A DNA stretch of 51,592 nucleotides from Thermus arciformis (GTDB taxonomy: Bacteria; Deinococcota; Deinococci; Deinococcales; Thermaceae). The notes beneath the pieces are model-generated. The model was not told the DNA's origin. It saw nothing but the letters and a program-made list of their open reading frames with translations, and made no database searches. Positions 3,896 through 31,692 of the stretch are shown in pieces (the stretch's first letter is position 1; each line of letters begins with the position of its first letter). The position numbers were made by a program, and so were the translations under genes. The stretch spans positions 1 through 51,592 of the forward strand of contig NZ_FNBC01000016.1 in the NCBI RefSeq assembly GCF_900102145.1. The letters run 5' to 3'.

Positions 3896-3909
3896 ATGAC
3901 CTGGGTCAT
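3896..3909. promoter_or_regulatory. DnrT-type operator ATGACC-TG-GGTCAT
   Basis: This perfect 6-2-6 dyad overlaps the stop codon of the Rrf2 gene. Its centre is 43.5 bp upstream of the ScdA_N start codon at 3859, the distance expected for class II activation of a nearly leaderless mRNA. It belongs to the palindrome family described in the findings. Confidence 0.65.
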
Positions 3910-4331
3910 GCCCCCTCTGGGGCCTGGGGCAGGAGGTCCTTCAGGGTGAGGGAGGCGAAGGCTTTGCGGATCTCCTGGTTCAGCCGCACCAGGTTCGGCT
4001 TCAGGTGGCAAAACCCCCGCCTCTCCTCCGTGGGGCAGCGCTTCAGCGTGGCGCAGGGGTCCAGGACCACGGGGCCGGAGAGGGTTTCCATCACCTTGAG
4101 GAGGGTGATCTCCTCTGGGGGAAGTTTCAGCCACACCCCTCCTGCCCGGCCCATGCGGCTCTCCACGAGGCCTGCCTTAGCCAGTTTGGAGAGCACCTTG
4201 GCCATGAAGGCGGGAGGGGCTTTGAGCTTCTGGGCGATCTCCTGGGCCGAGAGGCCGGATTCCTCCGCCAGGAGGAGAAGGGCGTGGAGGGCGTAAGACT
4301 CTTCCCGTTTGAGGAGGCTGCGCAGGGCCAT
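3906..4331 (-). CDS. Rrf2-family regulator with three-Cys cluster (NsrR-like)
   Basis: The 141-aa protein has an N-terminal winged helix (MALRSLLKREESYALHALLL, with HTH AQEIAQKLKAPPAFMAKVLS) and a C-terminal C-x5-C-x8-C cluster (DPCATLKRC...FCHL). That is the place where NsrR and IscR carry [Fe-S] ligands. NsrR senses NO, which fits its position divergent from norCBH. The ATG at 4331 opens the conserved fold. A longer frame reaches 4460 but its extra 43 residues look non-coding. A TTG near 4352 with GGAGGAGG upstream is an alternative. It may control nor or its own divergent region; target sites are unknown. Confidence 0.8.
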   Translation of the reverse strand: MALRSLLKREESYALHALLLLAEESGLSAQEIAQKLKAPPAFMAKVLSKLAKAGLVESRMGRAGGVWLKLPPEEITLLKVMETLSGPVVLDPCATLKRCPTEERRGFCHLKPNLVRLNQEIRKAFASLTLKDLLPQAPEGA

Positions 4332-4466
4332 GACCCCATGGTAACCGGGCAAAAGGCCTCCTCCCTGGCCTTCCCGTGGGGCGGACCCGCTTCCAAAGCG
4401 TAGGCGAGGAGGAGCACCGCGGCCTGGCTCAAATGTTCCCAAGGAAGCACTTGGGGACATTTGCCC

Positions 4467-7018: not shown

Positions 7019-7056
7019 CTTGGACACCTATATCTTAGTTCGTGGAGGTGAAGTCC

Positions 7057-8667
7057 ATGAAACGAGGGTTAGGTCTATTAGGCATGTTGGTGTTGGGGGC
7101 CCTGGCCTTGGCCCAGGCTCCCGCTCCCCTGAGCCCGGCGGAGAAGGAGCGGGCTTCGCAGATCTACTTTGACCGTTGCGCCGGGTGCCACGGGGTCTTG
7201 CGCAAGGGGGCCACGGGCCCGGCCCTGGACCCCAAGAAGATGGCGGAGCGGGGGGTTGAGTACCTGAAGGCGGTCATCTTTGGCGGGCTTCCCGGGGGCA
7301 TGCCCGACTGGGGGCGGCAGGGCATCCTGAGCGAGAAGGACACCGAGCTTATGGCCCGCTTCCTCCTGGAAGAGCCGCCCACGCCTCCCATCCCCTCCTA
7401 CGAGGAGATCCGCAAGACCTGGAAGGTCTACGTGCCCCCGGAGAAGCGGCCCAAGAAGCCCGAGCATAGCCGCAACTGGCAAAACTTCTTCGGACAGGTG
7501 CTCCGGGACACGGGCCAGGTGGCCATCATCGACGGGGACAAGAAGGAGCTGGTGACCATCGTGCCCACGGGCTTCGCCACCCACATCCTGCGTTCCAGCG
7601 CCACCGGGCGCTACTTCATGGCCATCGGCCGGGACGGGAAGGCGAGCCTCATAGACCTTTGGATGAACCCGCCCCAGGTGGTGGCGGAGTCCAAGCCTTG
7701 CGTGGACGCCCGCTCCATTGAGTCCAGCAAGTTCAAGGGGTTTGAGGACAAGTACGCGGTGGTGGGGTGCTACTGGCCGCCCACCATGGTCATCCTGGAC
7801 GGCCAAACCCTCGAGCCCCTGAAGATGGTCTCCACCATGTCCTACACCAAGGGGGCGGGGGAGTTCGTGCAGGAGGCCCGGGTGGCCGCCATCGTGGCCA
7901 GCCAGTTCAACCCCGAGTGGATCGTAAACCTGAAGGAGTCGGGCCAGACCTGGCTCGTGGACTACTCCCAGCTCTCCAAGCAGGGCCGGCCCCTTCCCAT
8001 CACCATGATCGACACCGAGCGCTTCCTCCACGACGGGGGCTGGGCTTTGAAGCGCTACTTCATCGTGGCGGCCAACGCGGTGAACAAGCTCATCGTCATC
8101 GACACCAAGACCCGGGAGTTCGTGGCCGAGGTGGAGGCCGGGGTGCGTCCTCACCCGGGCCGGGGGTCCAACTGGACCCACCCCACCTACGGGCCGGTCT
8201 GGGCCACGGGGAACATCGGTAGTCCCGAGGTGACGGTGGTGGGCGTGGACCCCGAGAAGCACCCCCAGTACGCCTGGAAAGTGGTGAAAAGGATCCAGCT
8301 TCCCTACGCGGGTACCCTCTTCATCAAGACCCACCCCAACAGCCCCTGGGTGATCGTGGACTTCCCCATGAGCCCAAGCCCCCAGGCTGCCGCCAGCCTC
8401 TGCGCCATTGACAAGCGGAAGCTTGAGGTCACCAAGTGCTGGGAGGTACCGGGGGCCCAGGAGCTCAAGGCCCGCATGGTCCACCCCGAGTTCAACAAGG
8501 GAGGCACGGAGATCTGGGTCTCCGCCTGGGGGAGTAAGGACACGCCCACCTTCATCGTGGTCTACGACGCCCTGACCCTCAAGGAAAAGGCCCGGATCAC
8601 CGGGGACTGGGTGCGTACCCCCACGGGCAAGTTCAACGTCTACAACACCGCCTACGACATCTACTGA
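7057..8667 (+). CDS. nirS: Cytochrome cd1 nitrite reductase (NO-forming)
   Basis: The 536-aa protein has a signal peptide ending LALAQA (about residues 1-21), a c-type heme domain with CAGCH at 41-45, and an eight-bladed d1-heme propeller filling the rest. Examples of propeller motifs are GQVAIIDGDKKELVTIVPTGFATH and the VRPHPGRGSNWTHPTYGPVWATG region with its His residues. It reduces nitrite to NO outside the membrane. The ATG at 7057 follows GGAGGTGAAGTCC; a GTG at 7042 is in frame but would disrupt the signal peptide. It is a single-gene unit with a palindrome upstream and a hairpin downstream. Confidence 0.95.
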   Translation: MKRGLGLLGMLVLGALALAQAPAPLSPAEKERASQIYFDRCAGCHGVLRKGATGPALDPKKMAERGVEYLKAVIFGGLPGGMPDWGRQGILSEKDTELMARFLLEEPPTPPIPSYEEIRKTWKVYVPPEKRPKKPEHSRNWQNFFGQVLRDTGQVAIIDGDKKELVTIVPTGFATHILRSSATGRYFMAIGRDGKASLIDLWMNPPQVVAESKPCVDARSIESSKFKGFEDKYAVVGCYWPPTMVILDGQTLEPLKMVSTMSYTKGAGEFVQEARVAAIVASQFNPEWIVNLKESGQTWLVDYSQLSKQGRPLPITMIDTERFLHDGGWALKRYFIVAANAVNKLIVIDTKTREFVAEVEAGVRPHPGRGSNWTHPTYGPVWATGNIGSPEVTVVGVDPEKHPQYAWKVVKRIQLPYAGTLFIKTHPNSPWVIVDFPMSPSPQAAASLCAIDKRKLEVTKCWEVPGAQELKARMVHPEFNKGGTEIWVSAWGSKDTPTFIVVYDALTLKEKARITGDWVRTPTGKFNVYNTAYDIY

Positions 8668-8674
8668 AGCCCTT

Positions 8675-8699
8675 GGGGCCGGGGTTCGTCCCCGGCCCC
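8675..8699 (+). terminator. Strong hairpin after nirS
   Basis: A perfect 10-bp stem, GGGGCCGGGG / CCCCGGCCCC, with a 5-nt loop TTCGT starts 7 bp after the nirS stop. There is no T-run; the DnrT-type site begins at the next base. It may act as a terminator or as an mRNA 3' stabiliser that uncouples nirS from nirJM. Confidence 0.6.
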
Positions 8700-8713
8700 T
8701 TGACCCCGGTCAT
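8700..8713. promoter_or_regulatory. DnrT-type operator TTGACC-CC-GGTCAT upstream of nirJ
   Basis: This 14-bp dyad is centred 42.5 bp before the nirJ ATG. A GATAAC at 8739-8744 is at the right place for a -10, which would make the nirJM transcript essentially leaderless. Confidence 0.65.
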
Positions 8714-8748
8714 AGAAACGCGCCCTCACCCGCTTGGAGGATAACTCC

Positions 8749-9876
8749 ATGGAACGCCCCGACTTCGCCCAATACCCCTACCTGGTGGCCTGGGAGGTGA
8801 CGAACGCCTGCCTCCTCGCCTGCCGCCACTGCCGGGCCTCGGCCATGCCCCACCCCCTGCCGGGGGAGCTTTCCACCCAGGAGGGCTTAAGGCTCATAGA
8901 GGAGGTCGCCACCTATCGCCCGAAGCCCCTCCTCCTCCTCACCGGGGGGGACCCCTTGGCCCGGAAAGACCTTTTTCTCCTCGTTGAACGCGCCCGGGCC
9001 CTGGGCCTCAAGGTGGGCCTCACCCCGGCGGCCACGCCTCTCCTCACCCGGGAGATGGTCTTCCGCCTGAAGGAGGCCGGGGTCACCCGGCTCGCCCTCT
9101 CCCTGGACGGGGCGAGCGCCCAAACCCACGACGCCTTCCGGGGGGAAGAGGGCACCTTCCAGAGGACCCTCGAGGCCCTCTCCTGGGCCAAGGAGGCCGG
9201 GCTTCCCACCCAGGTGAACACCACCGTCACCCGGGAGAACTGGCCGGAGATCCGGGCCCTCCCCGACCTCCTGGCGGAAAAGGGGGTGGTCCTCTGGAGC
9301 CTCTTCTTCCTGGTGCCGGTGGGCCGGGGGGCGCTTCTTAGGCAGCTTTCCGCCAGGGGGTTTGAGGAGGTCCTCCACTGGCTTTACCAGGTCTCCAAGG
9401 CGTATCCCTTCCACGTCAAGACCACGGAGGCCCACCACTTCCGCCGGGTGGTGCTGCAAAGGCGCAAGGAGGAGGGTGGGGGAGACCGGGCCCTGGCGGC
9501 AGGGGAGAGCCTCCACCGGGAGTACTTCCAAGACGGCATGGAGCACTCCCGCCTGGGGGTCACGGACGGGAACGGCTTCGTCTTCGTCTCCGCCACCGGG
9601 GACGTGGCCCCTTCGGGGTTTTTGCCGATCTACGCCGGGAACGTCCGGGAGAAGCCCCTTCTGGAGATCTACCGGAATAGCTCCCTCTTCCAGGAGCTCA
9701 GGAACAAGGACCTCCTCAAGGGGAAATGCGGGGTGTGCGAGTACCGCTACGCCTGCGGGGGCAGCCGGGCCCGGGCCTGGGCGGAGACCGGGGACTACTT
9801 GCAAAGCGAGCCCCGGTGCGCCTACGTGCCCCCGGCTTGGCTGGAGAAGGTGGGAAAGAAGGCGATCGGGAGGTGA
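8749..9876 (+). CDS. nirJ: Radical SAM heme d1 biosynthesis protein
   Basis: The 375-aa protein has the radical-SAM C-x3-C-x2-C motif (CLLACRHC, residues 21-28) and a C-terminal SPASM-type Cys cluster (KCGVCEYRYACGG...PRC). This is the NirJ layout; NirJ modifies propionate side chains during synthesis of heme d1 for NirS. The related AhbC/AhbD heme enzymes are alternatives, but position beside nirS decides. The ATG at 8749 follows GGAGG, and nirM starts 5 bp after the stop. Other d1 genes (nirE, nirF, nirDLGH) are not in this window. Confidence 0.88.
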   Translation: MERPDFAQYPYLVAWEVTNACLLACRHCRASAMPHPLPGELSTQEGLRLIEEVATYRPKPLLLLTGGDPLARKDLFLLVERARALGLKVGLTPAATPLLTREMVFRLKEAGVTRLALSLDGASAQTHDAFRGEEGTFQRTLEALSWAKEAGLPTQVNTTVTRENWPEIRALPDLLAEKGVVLWSLFFLVPVGRGALLRQLSARGFEEVLHWLYQVSKAYPFHVKTTEAHHFRRVVLQRRKEEGGGDRALAAGESLHREYFQDGMEHSRLGVTDGNGFVFVSATGDVAPSGFLPIYAGNVREKPLLEIYRNSSLFQELRNKDLLKGKCGVCEYRYACGGSRARAWAETGDYLQSEPRCAYVPPAWLEKVGKKAIGR

Positions 9877-9881
9877 AGGGT

Positions 9882-10316
9882 ATGGTGAGGAAAAGGCTGA
9901 TGGTGGGTGCACTTTTGGCCTTGGGCTTTTGGGGTCTGGCCTTGGCCCAGGACGGGGCCAAGCTTTACGCCCAGTACTGCTCAAGCTGCCACCAGTCCAC
10001 GGGGCTGGGGATCCCGAACGCCTTCCCCGCCCTCAAGGGCCTGGACCAGCTGGCCCAGACGGACGAGGGGCGCGTCTACCTGATCCACGCGGTGCTCTTC
10101 GGCCTGCAGGGACCCTTGAAGGTGGGGAGCGCCACGTACAACGGCCTCATGCCGGGGTTCGGCGGGCAGCTCTCCGACGAGCAGGTGGCCGCCCTTCTCA
10201 ACCACGCCCTTTCCTCCTTCGGCAACAAGAACCCGAAGCCGATCACGCCCGAGGAGGTCAAGAAGGTCCGGGCTAAGCCCGTGAAGCCCCAGGACGTGGC
10301 CAAGGGCCGCCCCTAA
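9882..10316 (+). CDS. nirM: Periplasmic c-type cytochrome, likely electron donor to NirS
   Basis: The 144-aa mono-heme cytochrome c has a signal peptide ending ALAQ and the heme site CSSCH at 33-37. The sixth-ligand Met is likely in GLMPGFGGQLSDEQ. The last ~30 residues are a Lys/Pro-rich tail (KPITPEEVKKVRAKPVKPQD). It is translated right after nirJ (GGGAGGTGAAGGGT upstream of ATG). Its role as donor to cytochrome cd1 is inferred from the operon and from the Thermus nirSJM arrangement. Confidence 0.85.
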   Translation: MVRKRLMVGALLALGFWGLALAQDGAKLYAQYCSSCHQSTGLGIPNAFPALKGLDQLAQTDEGRVYLIHAVLFGLQGPLKVGSATYNGLMPGFGGQLSDEQVAALLNHALSSFGNKNPKPITPEEVKKVRAKPVKPQDVAKGRP

Positions 10317-10371
10317 GTGTCCGCACCTTGATTTCGCCACATGGGACGCCGGGGGTAGGGCTTTGCGAAGG

Positions 10372-10417
10372 CTCTTTTGGGGCCCCCGCTCTGGCGCAAG
10401 CCAGAGCGGGGTACTTA
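10372..10417 (+). repeat. REP-like palindrome, copy C, at the end of the MarR gene
   Basis: The order is CTTTTGGGGCCCC, then the stem CCCCGCTCTGGC / GCCAGAGCGGGG with loop GCAA, then GTACTTA. It lies between nirM and the convergent MarR gene and probably terminates both. The final TTA, read on the minus strand, is the TAA stop codon of the MarR gene. It shares its layout with copies at 11472, 15123 and 29272. Confidence 0.75.
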
Positions 10418-10957
10418 GGCCGGGGCGTGGTCCGGGCAGGCGAGGCGGAGGTCTAGGGGGGCCAGGGGGATCTGGAGGAGGGCGCAGAAAAATCCCTCTT
10501 CCTGCCGCAGGTGGCGGCAGGTGAGGCAGAGGCCGGTCTCCGCCATCACCCCCTGGCGCACTAGGGCGGCGAGGAGGTGCATGAGGCCGAGGAGGAGGCC
10601 TTCGGGGTCTTCCACCTCCCGCAGGGCCTGGCTCAGGGGGGCGGCGTAGCCCTTCAGGGCCTGGGCCAGGGCCTGGCCCTCCTCCGTGGGCTTAAGGCGC
10701 CAGCGCCGCCCGTCCTTCTCGTCCTTTTCCCTTCGGAGAAGCCCTTTGCGCTCCAAAGCGGCCAGGGCTTCGCTCACCGTGGCCGGCGTGAGGGCGAAGA
10801 GGGCGGCCAGGTCCACCACCCCTTGGGGCCTTTCCGCCAGGTGGAGGAGAAGGTGCGCCTGGGTAGGGGTGAGGCCCAGGCGGTGGGCTTCCCGGGTGAG
10901 GAGGGCCCTTTCCGCCTGGGCCAGGCGTTCCAGGAGGGCGAGGAGCTTCTCCTCCAC
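10415..10957 (-). CDS. MarR-family regulator with C-terminal Cys cluster
   Basis: The 180-aa protein has a winged-helix core (TPTQAHLLLHLAERPQGVVDLAALFALTPATVSEALAALERKGLL, about residues 30-75). A C-terminal extension has four Cys in C-x2-C...C...C arrangement (GLCLTCRHL, FFCALL, RLACPDH), suited to a metal or Fe-S cluster. It is the third gene of the protoglobin-P460 operon, so NO or redox control of that operon is a reasonable guess. The GTG start lies 10 bp after the P460 stop. Ligand and target are unknown. Confidence 0.75.
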   Translation of the reverse strand: MEEKLLALLERLAQAERALLTREAHRLGLTPTQAHLLLHLAERPQGVVDLAALFALTPATVSEALAALERKGLLRREKDEKDGRRWRLKPTEEGQALAQALKGYAAPLSQALREVEDPEGLLLGLMHLLAALVRQGVMAETGLCLTCRHLRQEEGFFCALLQIPLAPLDLRLACPDHAPA

Positions 10958-10966
10958 CCCTCTAGC

Positions 10967-11440
10967 TTAGGGCTGGAAGGCGCTGAAGACGTAGTCGGTG
11001 TTCGCCGCCCCCTGGTGGCAGGCGTGGCAGGCCTTGGGGTCTATGGCGAGGGGCTTCTTGTCGGGGCCGAAGGCGTAGTAGCCCCACCCGCCCGTCTCCC
11101 GGTAGCGCTCCGGGTCCTTGACCATGACCCCGATGAGCTTCCTTGGGCCCTCTATGAGGGCGTTCCCCTCCACCTTGGCCTCGAGGAGGTCAAAGACGAT
11201 GACCGTACGCCTAGGGAAGGGGGCCTTCTTGCCCTCCAGGTAGGTCTTGAGGCCCACGGGGTTCACGTAGACGTGGTGGAGCCCCCCGAAGCTCTCGTAG
11301 AGGGGATGGCCGGGCTTGAGCTCCATGCTTTTCACGTGGGTCCAGAGCCGGTAGCCCTCGGGGTAGGGGAAGCCCGTTTCCCCGTACTGCCCCAAGGCTA
11401 TGAGGGCCAACACGGCCAACCAAGGTCCGTACCGCTTCAT
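10967..11440 (-). CDS. Cytochrome P460-family protein
   Basis: The 157-aa protein has an N-terminal signal helix (about residues 3-20), a central domain of the P460 fold (PHPLYESFGGLHHVYVN-like core, FPRRTVIVFDLLEAK) and a C-terminal c-heme site CHACH (DPKACHACHQGAANTDYVF). P460 cytochromes oxidise hydroxylamine and NO to N2O or nitrite with a Lys-crosslinked heme. Similar proteins also occur in non-nitrifiers as NO-detoxifying cytochromes c'-beta. The ATG at 11440 follows AAGGAGGTGGAGG. It is downstream of the protoglobin gene and upstream of the MarR gene. Confidence 0.82.
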   Translation of the reverse strand: MKRYGPWLAVLALIALGQYGETGFPYPEGYRLWTHVKSMELKPGHPLYESFGGLHHVYVNPVGLKTYLEGKKAPFPRRTVIVFDLLEAKVEGNALIEGPRKLIGVMVKDPERYRETGGWGYYAFGPDKKPLAIDPKACHACHQGAANTDYVFSAFQP

Positions 11441-11471
11441 CCTCCACCTCCTTGGCGTTTCTTTCATGGCG

Positions 11472-11517
11472 CCTTTTTGGGCCCTCCGCTGAGGCTTCCG
11501 CCTCGGCGGGGTATTTA
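11472..11517 (+). repeat. REP-like palindrome, copy B, between protoglobin and P460 genes
   Basis: The order is CCTTTTTGGGCCC, then the stem CCGCTGAGGC / GCCTCGGCGG with loop TTCC, then GGTATTTA. The terminal TTA provides the protoglobin TAA stop on the minus strand. Within the operon it could reduce read-through from protoglobin into P460. Confidence 0.75.
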
Positions 11518-12096
11518 AAAGTCGCCTTCCTTGGCGTAGGGGTAGCTCCAGAGGGCCACCTGCAGGACCACGGCCTTGAACCAGGCCTGGTGCATTCGCT
11601 CCACCGCCTCCGGGGGGTGACCTTTCTTGGCCAGGAAAGGCCGGATTGTGGCCGTGATAGGGTAGATAAAGGCGATAAGGTAGCGCAAGGGGATGTGGGG
11701 TACGGAGGCTACCCCGTCGGTCTGGTTCTTCTTGGTCCGGTGGTGGCGCAGGCCGATCTCGTGCTGATAGGCCAGCCAGGCCTCGTCGTGGGGCCGGAAG
11801 CAGGTGTCCAAAACCCACTGGCCAAAGCGCTTCCTCACCCGCTCCAGGTACTCCGGGATGGGGTTGCCCTGGCCGTCGGTGAAGTAGTGGAGGAGATGAG
11901 GGTGGCTGCCCACAAAGCTGTACCAGAGGTCCAAAACCTCCTCCACCTGGTCTTTGAGGACCTCGCCCGCCTCTTTTAGGGCCTTTTCGTCCTCCTCTGA
12001 CCAGAGAAGGGCGGCCTTGAGCTGGTGGAGAGCCTCGAGGGAAACCGGTGAGGGTGGAAGGCCGGGGTCGCCGTAGGTATAACCGGGTAGGACCAC
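11515..12096 (-). CDS. Protoglobin
   Basis: The 193-aa single-domain globin has the N-terminal loop IPGYTYG-like LPGYTYGDPGLPPSPVS and the protoglobin heme pocket (WLAYQHEIGLRHHRTKKNQTDG, with the proximal His inside). It closely resembles archaeal protoglobin. It binds O2, CO or NO, and with P460 behind it NO handling is likely. I choose the GTG at 12096, 5 bases after AAAGGAGG; a GTG at 12102 overlaps the Shine-Dalgarno. It has a strong own promoter and operator (12107-12150). Confidence 0.88.
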   Translation of the reverse strand: MVLPGYTYGDPGLPPSPVSLEALHQLKAALLWSEEDEKALKEAGEVLKDQVEEVLDLWYSFVGSHPHLLHYFTDGQGNPIPEYLERVRKRFGQWVLDTCFRPHDEAWLAYQHEIGLRHHRTKKNQTDGVASVPHIPLRYLIAFIYPITATIRPFLAKKGHPPEAVERMHQAWFKAVVLQVALWSYPYAKEGDF

Positions 12097-12106
12097 GGTC
12101 ACCTCC

Positions 12107-12150
12107 TTTAGGACTCCTAAATATTACCTTTCAGTCCCTCCGCCTGTCAA
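12107..12150 (-). promoter_or_regulatory. Protoglobin promoter with TTTAGGACTCCTAAA operator
   Basis: On the minus strand TTGACA (12145-12150) and TAATAT (12121-12126) are 18 bp apart, a near-consensus promoter that is unusual for this G+C-rich window. A perfect dyad TTTAGGA-C-TCCTAAA (12107-12121) covers the expected start of transcription, as a repressor site would. Half-sites TTAGGAC also occur upstream of nirS and dnrS. Confidence 0.7.
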
Positions 12151-12299: not shown

Positions 12300-12830
12300 A
12301 TGCCTGAAGAGATCGCCACCTTGGCGGGCGGGTGCTTCTGGTGCACGGAGGCGGCCTTCAAACTCCTCAAAGGGGTGTTGGAGGTGGTGCCGGGCTACGC
12401 CGGGGGGCACGTGCCCCACCCCACCTATGAGGAGGTCTCTACCGGGGCCACGGGGCACCGGGAGGCGGTGCAGGTGCGCTTTGACCCCGAGGTCCTCCCC
12501 TACGCCGACCTCCTGCGCTACTTCTTCGCCGTGCACGACCCCACGAGCGAGGACCGGCAGGGGCCCGACGTGGGGCCTCAGTATAGCCCCGCCATCTTCT
12601 ACCACTCGGAAGCGCAAAAGCGGGTGGCGGAGGCGGTGATGCGGGAGCTCGCCCCCCTCTACCCGAAGCCCATCGCCACCAAGCTTCTCCCTTTTACCAA
12701 CTTCTACCCCGCCGAGGAGTACCACCGGGACTACTTTGCCCGCCACCCCGAGGCCCCCTACTGCCGCCTGGTCATCGCCCCCAAGCTGGAGAAGGCCCGG
12801 AAGGCGTTCAAGCCCCTTCTCCGCCCATGA
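12300..12830 (+). CDS. msrA: Peptide methionine-S-sulfoxide reductase
   Basis: The 176-aa protein has the MsrA catalytic motif GGCFWCTEAAF (residues 10-20, C at 12 and 15) and conserved GYAGGHVPHPTYEEVSTGATGHREAVQV. It repairs S-methionine sulfoxide in proteins. Length is normal for the family. The ATG at 12300 follows CAGGTAACCTGAGGCT. Its 3' end overlaps the DUF488 gene on the other strand by about 20 bases. Link to the nitrogen-oxide genes is only general oxidative stress. Confidence 0.92.
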   Translation: MPEEIATLAGGCFWCTEAAFKLLKGVLEVVPGYAGGHVPHPTYEEVSTGATGHREAVQVRFDPEVLPYADLLRYFFAVHDPTSEDRQGPDVGPQYSPAIFYHSEAQKRVAEAVMRELAPLYPKPIATKLLPFTNFYPAEEYHRDYFARHPEAPYCRLVIAPKLEKARKAFKPLLRP

Positions 12831-13086
12831 GGCCCCCTTCCTCCAGGATGGCCTGGGCGTTGTTGTAGCGCGCCTCCTTGGCGCCGAAGCGGACAAACTC
12901 CGGGTACTTTCCGGGGTCGTGGGCAAACCAGCGCCTGAGGCCGTCCGAGGGGGCGAGCTCCCTGGCCCACCAGTCCACCCGGGCCTTTTCCTTGGGGAGC
13001 CCCCGGGGCCAGATCCGGTCCACCAGGACCCGGAGGCCGTCCTCGGGGGAAGGGGGATCGTAGACCCGCTTGGCGCGGAAGGGCAT
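12808..13086 (-). CDS. DUF488 protein with an apparent internal deletion
   Basis: The 92-aa protein starts like a normal DUF488 protein (RVYDPPSPEDGLRVLVDRIWPRGL, residues 6-29; then PGKYPEFV). It jumps from PEFVRF directly to GAKEARYNNAQAILEE. Family members have about 25 residues between these points, ending in a strand such as TLLYGA. Either a deletion has removed the last core strand and helix, or this is a short subfamily. The function of DUF488 is unknown. The ATG at 13086 follows GAGGAGGTGGGC. Confidence 0.7.
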   Translation of the reverse strand: MPFRAKRVYDPPSPEDGLRVLVDRIWPRGLPKEKARVDWWARELAPSDGLRRWFAHDPGKYPEFVRFGAKEARYNNAQAILEEGGLMGGEGA

Positions 13087-13096
13087 GCCCACCTCC

Positions 13097-13492
13097 TCAA
13101 AGCCAGTCCGCCTCCGGTAGGACGCACTCCGGGCACTGGGCCTCCACGAAGCGGAGCCAGTCCAGGACCTCTTCCTCGCCCCCCACGGGGCCCAGGTGGT
13201 AGACCTCGAGGAAGGCGTCCGCCACCAGGGCGCCCCCTTCGGGGATGGCGGAGAGGAGGGCGCCTTCCGGGTCCAGAAGGAGGGGGAGGGGGCTTGGCCT
13301 TGGGGCTTGGGCCAGGAGGTAGGCCTGGGCCCCCAGAGCCTTGAGCTCCGCCTCCCGCGCCGCGAGGCCTTGGGCCAGGGCCTCGCTCCTCAGGAGGACG
13401 AGGGGCTTCCCCTTGAGGTCTGGGAGGTAGACCCTGCCCCCCTCCGGGATCTTAAGGGTGTACGGAGGAAGGGGCTTACGCAGGCGGACCAC
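13097..13492 (-). CDS. Redoxin-like hypothetical protein
   Basis: The 131-aa protein has a thioredoxin/peroxiredoxin-like order of strands (VYLPDLKGKPLVLLRSEALAQGL; AQAYLLAQAP; PLLLDPEGALLSAIP; LVADAFLEVYHLG). It lacks a Cys at the usual N-terminal active site; two Cys occur only near the end (QCPECVLPE). It may be a degenerate redoxin. The GTG start at 13492 follows GGGTGAGGC. It is co-directional with DUF488, 10 bp apart. Confidence 0.6.
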   Translation of the reverse strand: MVRLRKPLPPYTLKIPEGGRVYLPDLKGKPLVLLRSEALAQGLAAREAELKALGAQAYLLAQAPRPSPLPLLLDPEGALLSAIPEGGALVADAFLEVYHLGPVGGEEEVLDWLRFVEAQCPECVLPEADWL

Positions 13493-30852: not shown

Positions 30853-31692
30853 GTGGAAGCGCTTTTGGCCGAGGAGACCCTGGTGCTGGACCTGCCCCCT
30901 TTGCCCGAGGAGGTCTTCCGGGACCTCCTCGCCTTCGGGGGCCTGCGGGAAGAGGACAAGCGGGCCATGCGCCTGGACGCGGAGCGGCTCCTGGAGGGGG
31001 CGGCTTCCTTCGTGGCCGGGGTCTACGACCACCTGAGCCGCCACCCGGGGACGGCCAAGGCCCTGGGCTGGGAGGGGCGGGTGCCCGAGGAGGAGCTTTA
31101 CCTGAGGCGGGCCTTTTTCTCCGCCTGGCTCGCCCGCACCCTCGGCGTGGACACCTCGGCGGAGTTCGCCCGGGAGGTCTACCGGGCGGGGCTCTGGCAC
31201 GGGGGGCTCGGGCCCAAGCGGGCCCACATCCCCCCGGAGTACGTGGGCCTTTCCTTCGCCATGGTGGGGCGGTACGTGGCGGAACGGGTGCGGGACGCCC
31301 GCCCCTGGCTCGTCTACCTCTCGGCCCAGGAGGAGGTGATGCGGAAGGGGTTTGACGCCGCCCTGGCCCTGAAGGAGGGAGGGGCCGAGGTGCGCTTCCA
31401 GGCCTTGGGCCTCGCCTACTCGGCCCAGCCCGAGCCCCTCCTCTTGCGGGCAAAGACCGTGGGGGAGGCCTTGAGGAAGACTTTCGCCGTGAACCCGGCC
31501 CTGCGGGACCTGGCCCTGGAGGCCGTCCCTTCCGAGGAGGAGGTGGGGCTCTGGCTTGAGCCCAAAACCCTCTACCGCCTGAGGCCCCGCTGGGCCGTGC
31601 TCCTCGAGGGCCGGGACGTCCGCTACCTTCAGGGCCTCGCCACCCCCCTCAAGTCCAGGGAGCGCCTCACCCTCCTCCCCCCGGGGCGCTAG
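30853..31692 (+). CDS. Protoglobin fused to a MoaD/ThiS-like domain
   Basis: This 279-aa protein has two parts. Residues ~1-178 look like a protoglobin / globin-sensor fold ([56 protein letters not shown]). Residues ~183-279 look like the ubiquitin-like MoaD/ThiS fold ([30 protein letters not shown], then [31 protein letters not shown]). The final Gly-Gly needed for sulfur transfer is absent (ends PPGR). It lies 3 bp after the previous gene. It may link heme gas sensing to a protein partner of the MoaD type. Family calls are from motif reading only. Confidence 0.65.

Follow-up and report, generated by a model that had tools for sequence, protein, structure and literature searches.

A cysteine-tailed MarR gene recurs with cytochrome c′-β and protoglobin genes behind a predicted operator in Thermaceae

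Local control of NO-related genes by a cysteine-bearing regulator is a feature of both the NsrR-hmp system and the Thermus NsrR (nsrRST), and in this respect both resemble the locus analysed here. NsrR is a member of the Rrf2 family, whereas the regulator at our locus is a MarR protein with a C-terminal tail of four cysteines, a different operator and one apparent target. ArnR of Corynebacterium is, in the portion of PMC12343034 available to us, described as a MarR-like wHTH protein with C-terminal cysteines that carries a [4Fe-4S] cluster, is sensitive to NO and acts on the narK and hmp promoters. By this description ArnR would appear to be the nearest analogue of the tailed MarR, although it has three conserved cysteines (179, 193 and 223) rather than four, and its targets are the nar genes and hmp. 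In Thermus itself, a MarR-family gene named "norR" is reported to be conserved and syntenic in denitrification clusters, according to the accessible text of PMC9270275 (2022), and this is very probably the same gene as the one that we consider. A term search of that accessible text returned neither P460 nor globin, and no test of an operator or of function was found in it; the study by Sanchez-Costa et al. 2020 (PMC7694296) that it cites treats NsrR/NorR, and the words MarR, P460 and globin do not occur in the text of the latter. The same three terms are absent by term search from PMC5748679, PMC10989939 and PMC3764938. We found no paper in the open-access literature on a unit of MarR with P460 or protoglobin, or on the operator strings reported below, and the palindrome TTAGGANTCCTAA at the promoter of this operon is new here.

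The window, by which we mean the whole stretch of 51,592 nt (a 51.6-kb contig) from Thermus arciformis, carries the known denitrification island of Thermus. The island contains an Rrf2 regulator at the nsrR place (3909–4337), norCB, nirS, nirJ-like and nirM-like genes, and narGH-narK; the gene names are partly those used in the accessible part of PMC5748679, and the equivalents of dnrT/dnrS were assigned by place and size. The nirS, nirJ-like and nirM-like genes (7042–10316, plus strand) converge with a unit on the minus strand at 10415–12096 that adjoins both nirS/nirJ/nirM and norCB. As the initial annotation had it, this unit consists of three co-directional genes next to nirSJM, in the order protoglobin, P460-fold cytochrome and MarR regulator, the last being convergent with nirM and separated by a few bases from the stop codon of the cytochrome gene. 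A DUF488 gene and a small ORF without a Pfam match (12808–13492, minus strand) are co-directional neighbours in most Thermus loci, and they are probably not part of the unit because they lie upstream of the operator. Between the protoglobin stop and the cytochrome start is a strong hairpin (11466–11520, minus strand), which we considered as a terminator and which is followed by no U run in the operon direction. Among four protoglobin loci this hairpin is present in that of the window only, and the corresponding gap is just 11–19 nt in the three others (G001–G003). A similar intergenic hairpin element occurs twice in the window, after the MarR stop (10362–10418) and after the protoglobin stop (11466–11520), in both cases with arms of about 12 bp and with GGGCCC-like and GTAYTTA flanks.

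The first gene of the unit (11515–12096, minus strand) encodes a protein that matches PF11563 (E 2e-36) across the whole domain, from profile position 4 to 156 of 158, and that aligns over its full length with the M. acetivorans protoglobin (Pgb 2veb; phmmer E 4e-86). The two proteins have the same length and heme-pocket residues; the Thermus gene is unlike its archaeal counterpart in that a bacterial palindrome precedes it and its operon also contains c′-β and MarR genes. W60, Y61, F93, C101 and H120 are invariant in the four Thermus rows of the alignment, and we take H120 to be the proximal His and W60/Y61 to be the distal Trp and Tyr. The listed ORF starts at 12102, but the GTG at 12096, the start given in the initial annotation, appears likelier because it is placed after an AGGAGG. 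No signal peptide was seen in the protein, which was taken as cytoplasmic. A second, divergent protoglobin-domain protein is encoded at 30853–31692 on the plus strand (PF11563 E 3e-10), downstream of the nar genes; it is flanked on one side by the gene of a DUF1858/DUF2249 protein and on the other by that of a membrane-like protein that has no Pfam match and resembles NnrS by eye; two more protoglobin-domain matches occur in the same genome, on contigs C40 and C65.

The middle gene (10967–11440, minus strand) specifies a P460-fold protein (PF16694, E 1.8e-28) with an apparent signal peptide and a C-terminal CxxCH heme motif, whose residues C138-x2-C141-H142 are invariant in the alignment of Thermus rows. 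The initial annotation regarded it as a P460-type cytochrome that converts NO or hydroxylamine. Sharing a fold and a Pfam family with such enzymes, the protein could in principle be a true cytochrome P460 that oxidizes one of these compounds; this is highly improbable, however, since the nearest solved relatives are cytochromes c′-β, namely a Thermus chain (7ead, E 1.4e-86) and the M. capsulatus protein (6hih, E 1e-37), and the cross-linked P460s match at only E 1e-10 to 1e-7 (2je2, 1e-7). The first of these relatives, TtCP-β of T. thermophilus (PDB 7ead/8brk), is portrayed in the available text of a 2025 review (PMC11928373) as a c-heme protein that binds NO and CO, lacks the Lys cross-link and has Phe29 as its distal cap. 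F51 of the window's protein aligns with residue 29 of the 7ead chain, the Phe cap, and is invariant in 14 Thermus rows. We therefore rejected the assignment as a true P460 on sequence, and the protein is, by its closest relatives, better called a cytochrome c′-β. This grouping with published NO/CO binders leaves the enzymatic role first assigned to it unsupported; it leaves standing the view that both effectors come from NO-binding families, the protoglobin by profile and the cytochrome as a c′-β. TtCP-β is an orthologue whose gene, on T. thermophilus plasmids, is also followed by that of the tailed MarR; the available review text includes neither this gene context nor an operator. From the apparent signal peptide and the known families, the globin is expected to reside in the cytoplasm and the c′-β in the periplasm beside NirS.

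The third gene (10415–10957, minus strand) encodes the MarR-type regulator (PF12802, E 1.6e-13, 51 bits against a cut-off of 27), which ends in a tail with the pattern C144-x2-C147-x10-C158-x15-C174. The four cysteines, already noted in the initial annotation as a C-x2-C...C...C tail, are kept far beyond Thermus: they are invariant in 19 of 19 alignment rows from four phyla, Bacteroidota, Cyanobacteriota and Pseudomonadota among them. The G024 protein was left out of this alignment; a one-base frameshift, which may be an assembly error, removes its C174. A Pfam scan gave no Rrf2 domain match for the MarR protein, and the nsrR gene of the island does match Rrf2. None of the Pfam and NCBIfam models matched here spans the tail. 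The predicted structure has a mean pLDDT of 68.7, and because most of the tail falls below 60 we make no statement about its fold. A MarR protein 73% identical to that of the window is encoded on a contig in a record titled as a Bipolaricaulota MAG (L087), which is probably a Thermus contamination of the MAG.

Zinc-thiolate sites are common in cysteine tails of this kind. The tail could thus be a structural zinc site in a repressor that responds to a conventional small molecule, such as heme or an aromatic compound, bound in its MarR pocket, and a weak match to the profile of AdcR, a zinc MarR, points the same way. This alternative is improbable, as the AdcR match (NCBIfam NF038251) involves the HTH part only and reaches 38.4 bits, far under the cut-off of 175, and as no part of the protein is better conserved than the tail. 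It is probable that the signal exerts its effect on the four-cysteine tail.

Comparison of upstream regions and an exact search point to a predicted operator, the palindrome TTTAGGACTCCTAAA at 12107–12121 (minus strand, TTTAGGAGTCCTAAA). It borders on the −10 box of the operon's leading gene (TAATAT, 12121–12126, minus strand), and a −35 box, TTGACA, is found at 12145–12150 on the same strand. The pattern TTAGGA-N-TCCTAA precedes the unit regardless of which of its genes comes first. One exact copy of TTAGGANTCCTAA is present in each of 16 of the 50 Thermaceae genomes, all 16 sites being at this operon, and a reversed control pattern was found in one genome of the 50. The unit itself occurs in 20 of these genomes, a count that sets aside G016, G006 and G009, which have MarR genes or remnants and no cytochrome; the remaining four unit genomes (G001, G008, G014 and G022) have a copy with one mismatch in the same place. 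The exact palindrome is therefore found in 16/20 operon genomes versus 0/30 others (Fisher p 1e-9, with no correction for shared ancestry). Of 24 upstream regions, 22 have the palindrome immediately after the −10-like box of a TTGAC-type promoter, with the −10-like box about 17–18 bases behind TTGACA/TTGACG and with spacings that vary by one to three bases; the −35 match is absent in T. oshimai and G015. This arrangement of palindrome and promoter would be the geometry of a repressor, and local autorepression by the tailed MarR at the palindrome is very likely.

The MarR protein was also considered as a wider controller of the nir, nor and nar genes, and this was rejected: no operator is present at the nir/nor/nar promoters of the window, where the one other match has three mismatches and lies inside norB (5243), and a search of 27 Thermus genomes with one mismatch allowed yielded scattered single matches and no second recurrent site. 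On T. thermophilus plasmids (L119–L121), a conserved hypothetical gene of 106 residues near msrA lies upstream of the palindrome of the P460-fold gene; in HB27 transposase genes intervene between the two, and none was seen there in the window.

Recurrence of the unit was examined in 27 Thermus genomes, 50 Thermaceae genomes and, for a search of the phylum, 111 genomes. A c′-β gene is present in 14 of the 27 Thermus genomes, and in 14/14 the next gene after it, on the same strand, is that of the tailed MarR. The phylum search gave strong c′-β matches in 18 genomes, comprising the 14 Thermus genomes and four of a genus (g4) that may be Meiothermus-like, and the neighbour is a Cys-tailed MarR gene in 18/18 of these Thermaceae genomes with a close c′-β; the count excludes 14 of the 32 genomes with a match, whose P460 matches are weak (E 1e-7 to 6e-4), as well as the additional weak copies of G002 and G065. 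The MarR tail match is split from the body in G071. An archaeal-type protoglobin was detected in six of the 111 genomes, and in 6/6 it shares an operon with the tailed MarR. It lies upstream of the c′-β–MarR pair in 4/4 Thermus genomes that have it (27 searched) and directly upstream of the MarR gene, with the cytochrome absent, in G049 and G052, which represent two further genera; weak matches in the Thermus search (E 8.7e-5 or worse) and one in G001 were not counted. T. oshimai JL-2 and G015 (L079, L122) retain, between palindrome and cytochrome gene, a 19-codon protoglobin remnant composed of the start and end of the gene without the middle, and the trio was therefore once present in these genomes. 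Mapping the presence of protoglobin onto the MarR tree takes a minimum of three changes, so that its distribution is one of patchy loss or gain.

The linkage first noticed at a single locus thus extends to other genomes (18/18 and 6/6), and the three genes are a genuine linked, recurring unit. That a mobile denitrification island merely moved accidental neighbours together is scarcely credible: islands do shuffle genes, and the HB27 pair is bordered by IS-related genes, but G015, T. oshimai JL-2 and the g4 genomes retain the intact pair away from the island, behind one common palindrome. Chance linkage is ruled out by the adjacency counts and the palindrome. Where the unit lies elsewhere than on the Thermus island, the flanking genes that we inspected are ordinary ones unrelated to it, and hence the unit stands alone.

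Within Thermus, the unit accompanies nirS. All 14 Thermus unit genomes have nirS, for which real matches were found in 16 of 27 genomes, and among these 27 the unit occurs only together with nirS (Fisher p 6e-6, not phylogeny-corrected, for loci that are physically linked and mostly in one island). The G023 match was left out of the nirS count, as were all the other-genus matches (E 7e-7 or worse), which lie wholly within NirS residues 5–111, the cytochrome c part. The cytochrome is absent from G016, where nirS is truncated, and from G006 and G009, where nirS is absent, and the MarR gene in these genomes is intact, cut or a stub. The accessible text of PMC9270275 states that the pathway of T. 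brockianus YIM 77927, which lacks nor genes, probably ends at NO and that the nirS of T. caliditerrae is a pseudogene. The genome taken as the former (G010) has the unit with an exact palindrome, and that taken as the latter (G008) has kept the unit despite its broken nirS. In HB27 (pTT27) the pair is present with no nir genes nearby and with one base of the palindrome changed, and a NirS search of the six unit genomes of other genera (G049, G052 and four of g4) found no cd1 nirS. The initial annotation had read the trio as an NO module. Its association with nirS in 14/14 Thermus genomes agrees with that reading, and its presence in HB27 and three further genera of Thermaceae, with no cd1 nirS in the vicinity, does not. 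To describe it as an NO module of denitrification is therefore too restrictive, and the signal may be oxidative stress, thiol stress or stress from another gas.

Our preferred reading, to which we give a probability of roughly 0.55, is that of an autorepressed gas/redox-stress operon that probably buffers NO in denitrifying Thermus. A dimer of the Cys-tailed MarR would bind the single palindrome TTAGGANTCCTAA just downstream of the −10 box and so block the promoter of the protoglobin gene, the c′-β gene and its own gene. A reactive small molecule would then alter a four-cysteine centre in the tail, which may be an Fe-S or a Zn-thiolate site, and the repressor would be released. The cytoplasmic globin and the periplasmic cytochrome would now be made, and would bind or remove the molecule, which in denitrifying Thermus would most likely be NO from NirS. 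That NO or a nitrosative product is the main physiological signal in Thermus is a conjecture just short of even odds, with thiol/redox stress as the next candidate.

Regulators of this type are also found in other phyla. Of the many plasmid records listed we read 30 stretches; tailed MarRs were examined at 22 plasmid loci from organisms other than Thermaceae, including one Deinococcus. The core TAGGANTCCTA occurs exactly beside the tailed MarR gene in 11 of these 22 loci, in three other phyla (L124, L153, L155, L156, L157, L159, L161, L187, L188, L193 and L194), with close relatives among them (Ensifer L161/L187 and Shinella L159/L188); the Deinococcus locus L192 has a copy with one mismatch. 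At 10 of the 11 loci no more than about 100 bp separate the core from the MarR start, and in L153 it is ahead of a run of genes that ends with the MarR gene. Among the 1024 palindromes of the form NNNNN-N-NNNNN, counted for the first 13 loci over a stretch of about 330 bp that surrounds the MarR start, TAGGANTCCTA ranks first with 6/13, and no other palindrome exceeds 1. The core was not found near the MarR gene in L125, L126, L127, L154, L158, L160, L184, L189, L190 and L191, and L126 has an imperfect copy, with two mismatches, ahead of its gene run. A palindrome of another type, TAGTATCGATTCGATACTA-like, is seen ahead of the core-less tailed MarR genes of L127 (an Enterobacter plasmid, with a long palindrome) and L184 (Agarilytica).

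The genes that surround these regulators are varied. A protoglobin gene neighbours the tailed MarR in Hymenobacter (L126) and is divergent from it in Agarilytica (L184); of five plasmid protoglobins read among the seven listed, two have a tailed MarR nearby and three do not. Elsewhere, Novosphingobium has thioredoxin and DUF488 as neighbours, Nostoc has thiol peroxidase, thioredoxin and a globin, Defluviimonas has TlpA and NnrS, and Ruegeria has a hexameric tyrosine-coordinated heme protein and redoxin. No heme or redox neighbour was found at the tailed MarR in L125 and L153, and L158 has MOSC only. Near several tailed MarRs there is a protein of about 240 residues without a Pfam match, encoded downstream in L155, L157, L159, L192 and L194 and divergently in L158 and L160, the Pfam scan covering all copies except that of L159. 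The three of these proteins that were read begin with a likely signal peptide and have motifs in common, among them YVWPTSL/YVWPTTL and SGNLSLPG/SGDLSLPG.

Such neighbourhoods bear on an alternative in which the operon serves thiol/redox stress, the Cys4 tail is a sensor of peroxide, electrophiles, sulfane sulfur or the like, the heme proteins are peroxidases or gas buffers, and denitrification is a special case. Next to MarR genes with the same core are genes for thioredoxin (L124), thiol peroxidase plus thioredoxin (L156), TlpA (L155), redoxin (L159 and L193) and a peroxidase-related enzyme (L194, and L192 with its one mismatch), and the unit occurs without nirS outside Thermus. Within Thermaceae, however, the palindrome precedes only gas-binding heme proteins and their regulator, and none of the 27 Thermus genomes has the unit without nirS. 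We consider this alternative unlikely, albeit one to be taken seriously, and we favour the autorepressed gas/redox-stress operon. More tentatively, the Cys4-tailed MarRs might all belong to a single sensor family, as yet undescribed and spread across phyla, whose members respond to NO and related reactive species by a metal-thiolate or Fe-S centre and act through a common operator, TAGGANTCCTA. Such a family would be a functional counterpart of NsrR; it would control protoglobin and c′-β in Thermaceae, whereas its target would be protoglobin in Bacteroidota and Gammaproteobacteria and thiol peroxidase/thioredoxin in other groups.

Protoglobins and c′-β cytochromes have been studied as proteins, and their physiological signal is unsettled. 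A dedicated regulator together with a single located probable operator makes that signal testable in genetically tractable Thermus, where finding what lifts the repressor would reveal the function of both heme proteins. A common operator core would, in addition, give a handle on a widespread family of regulators.
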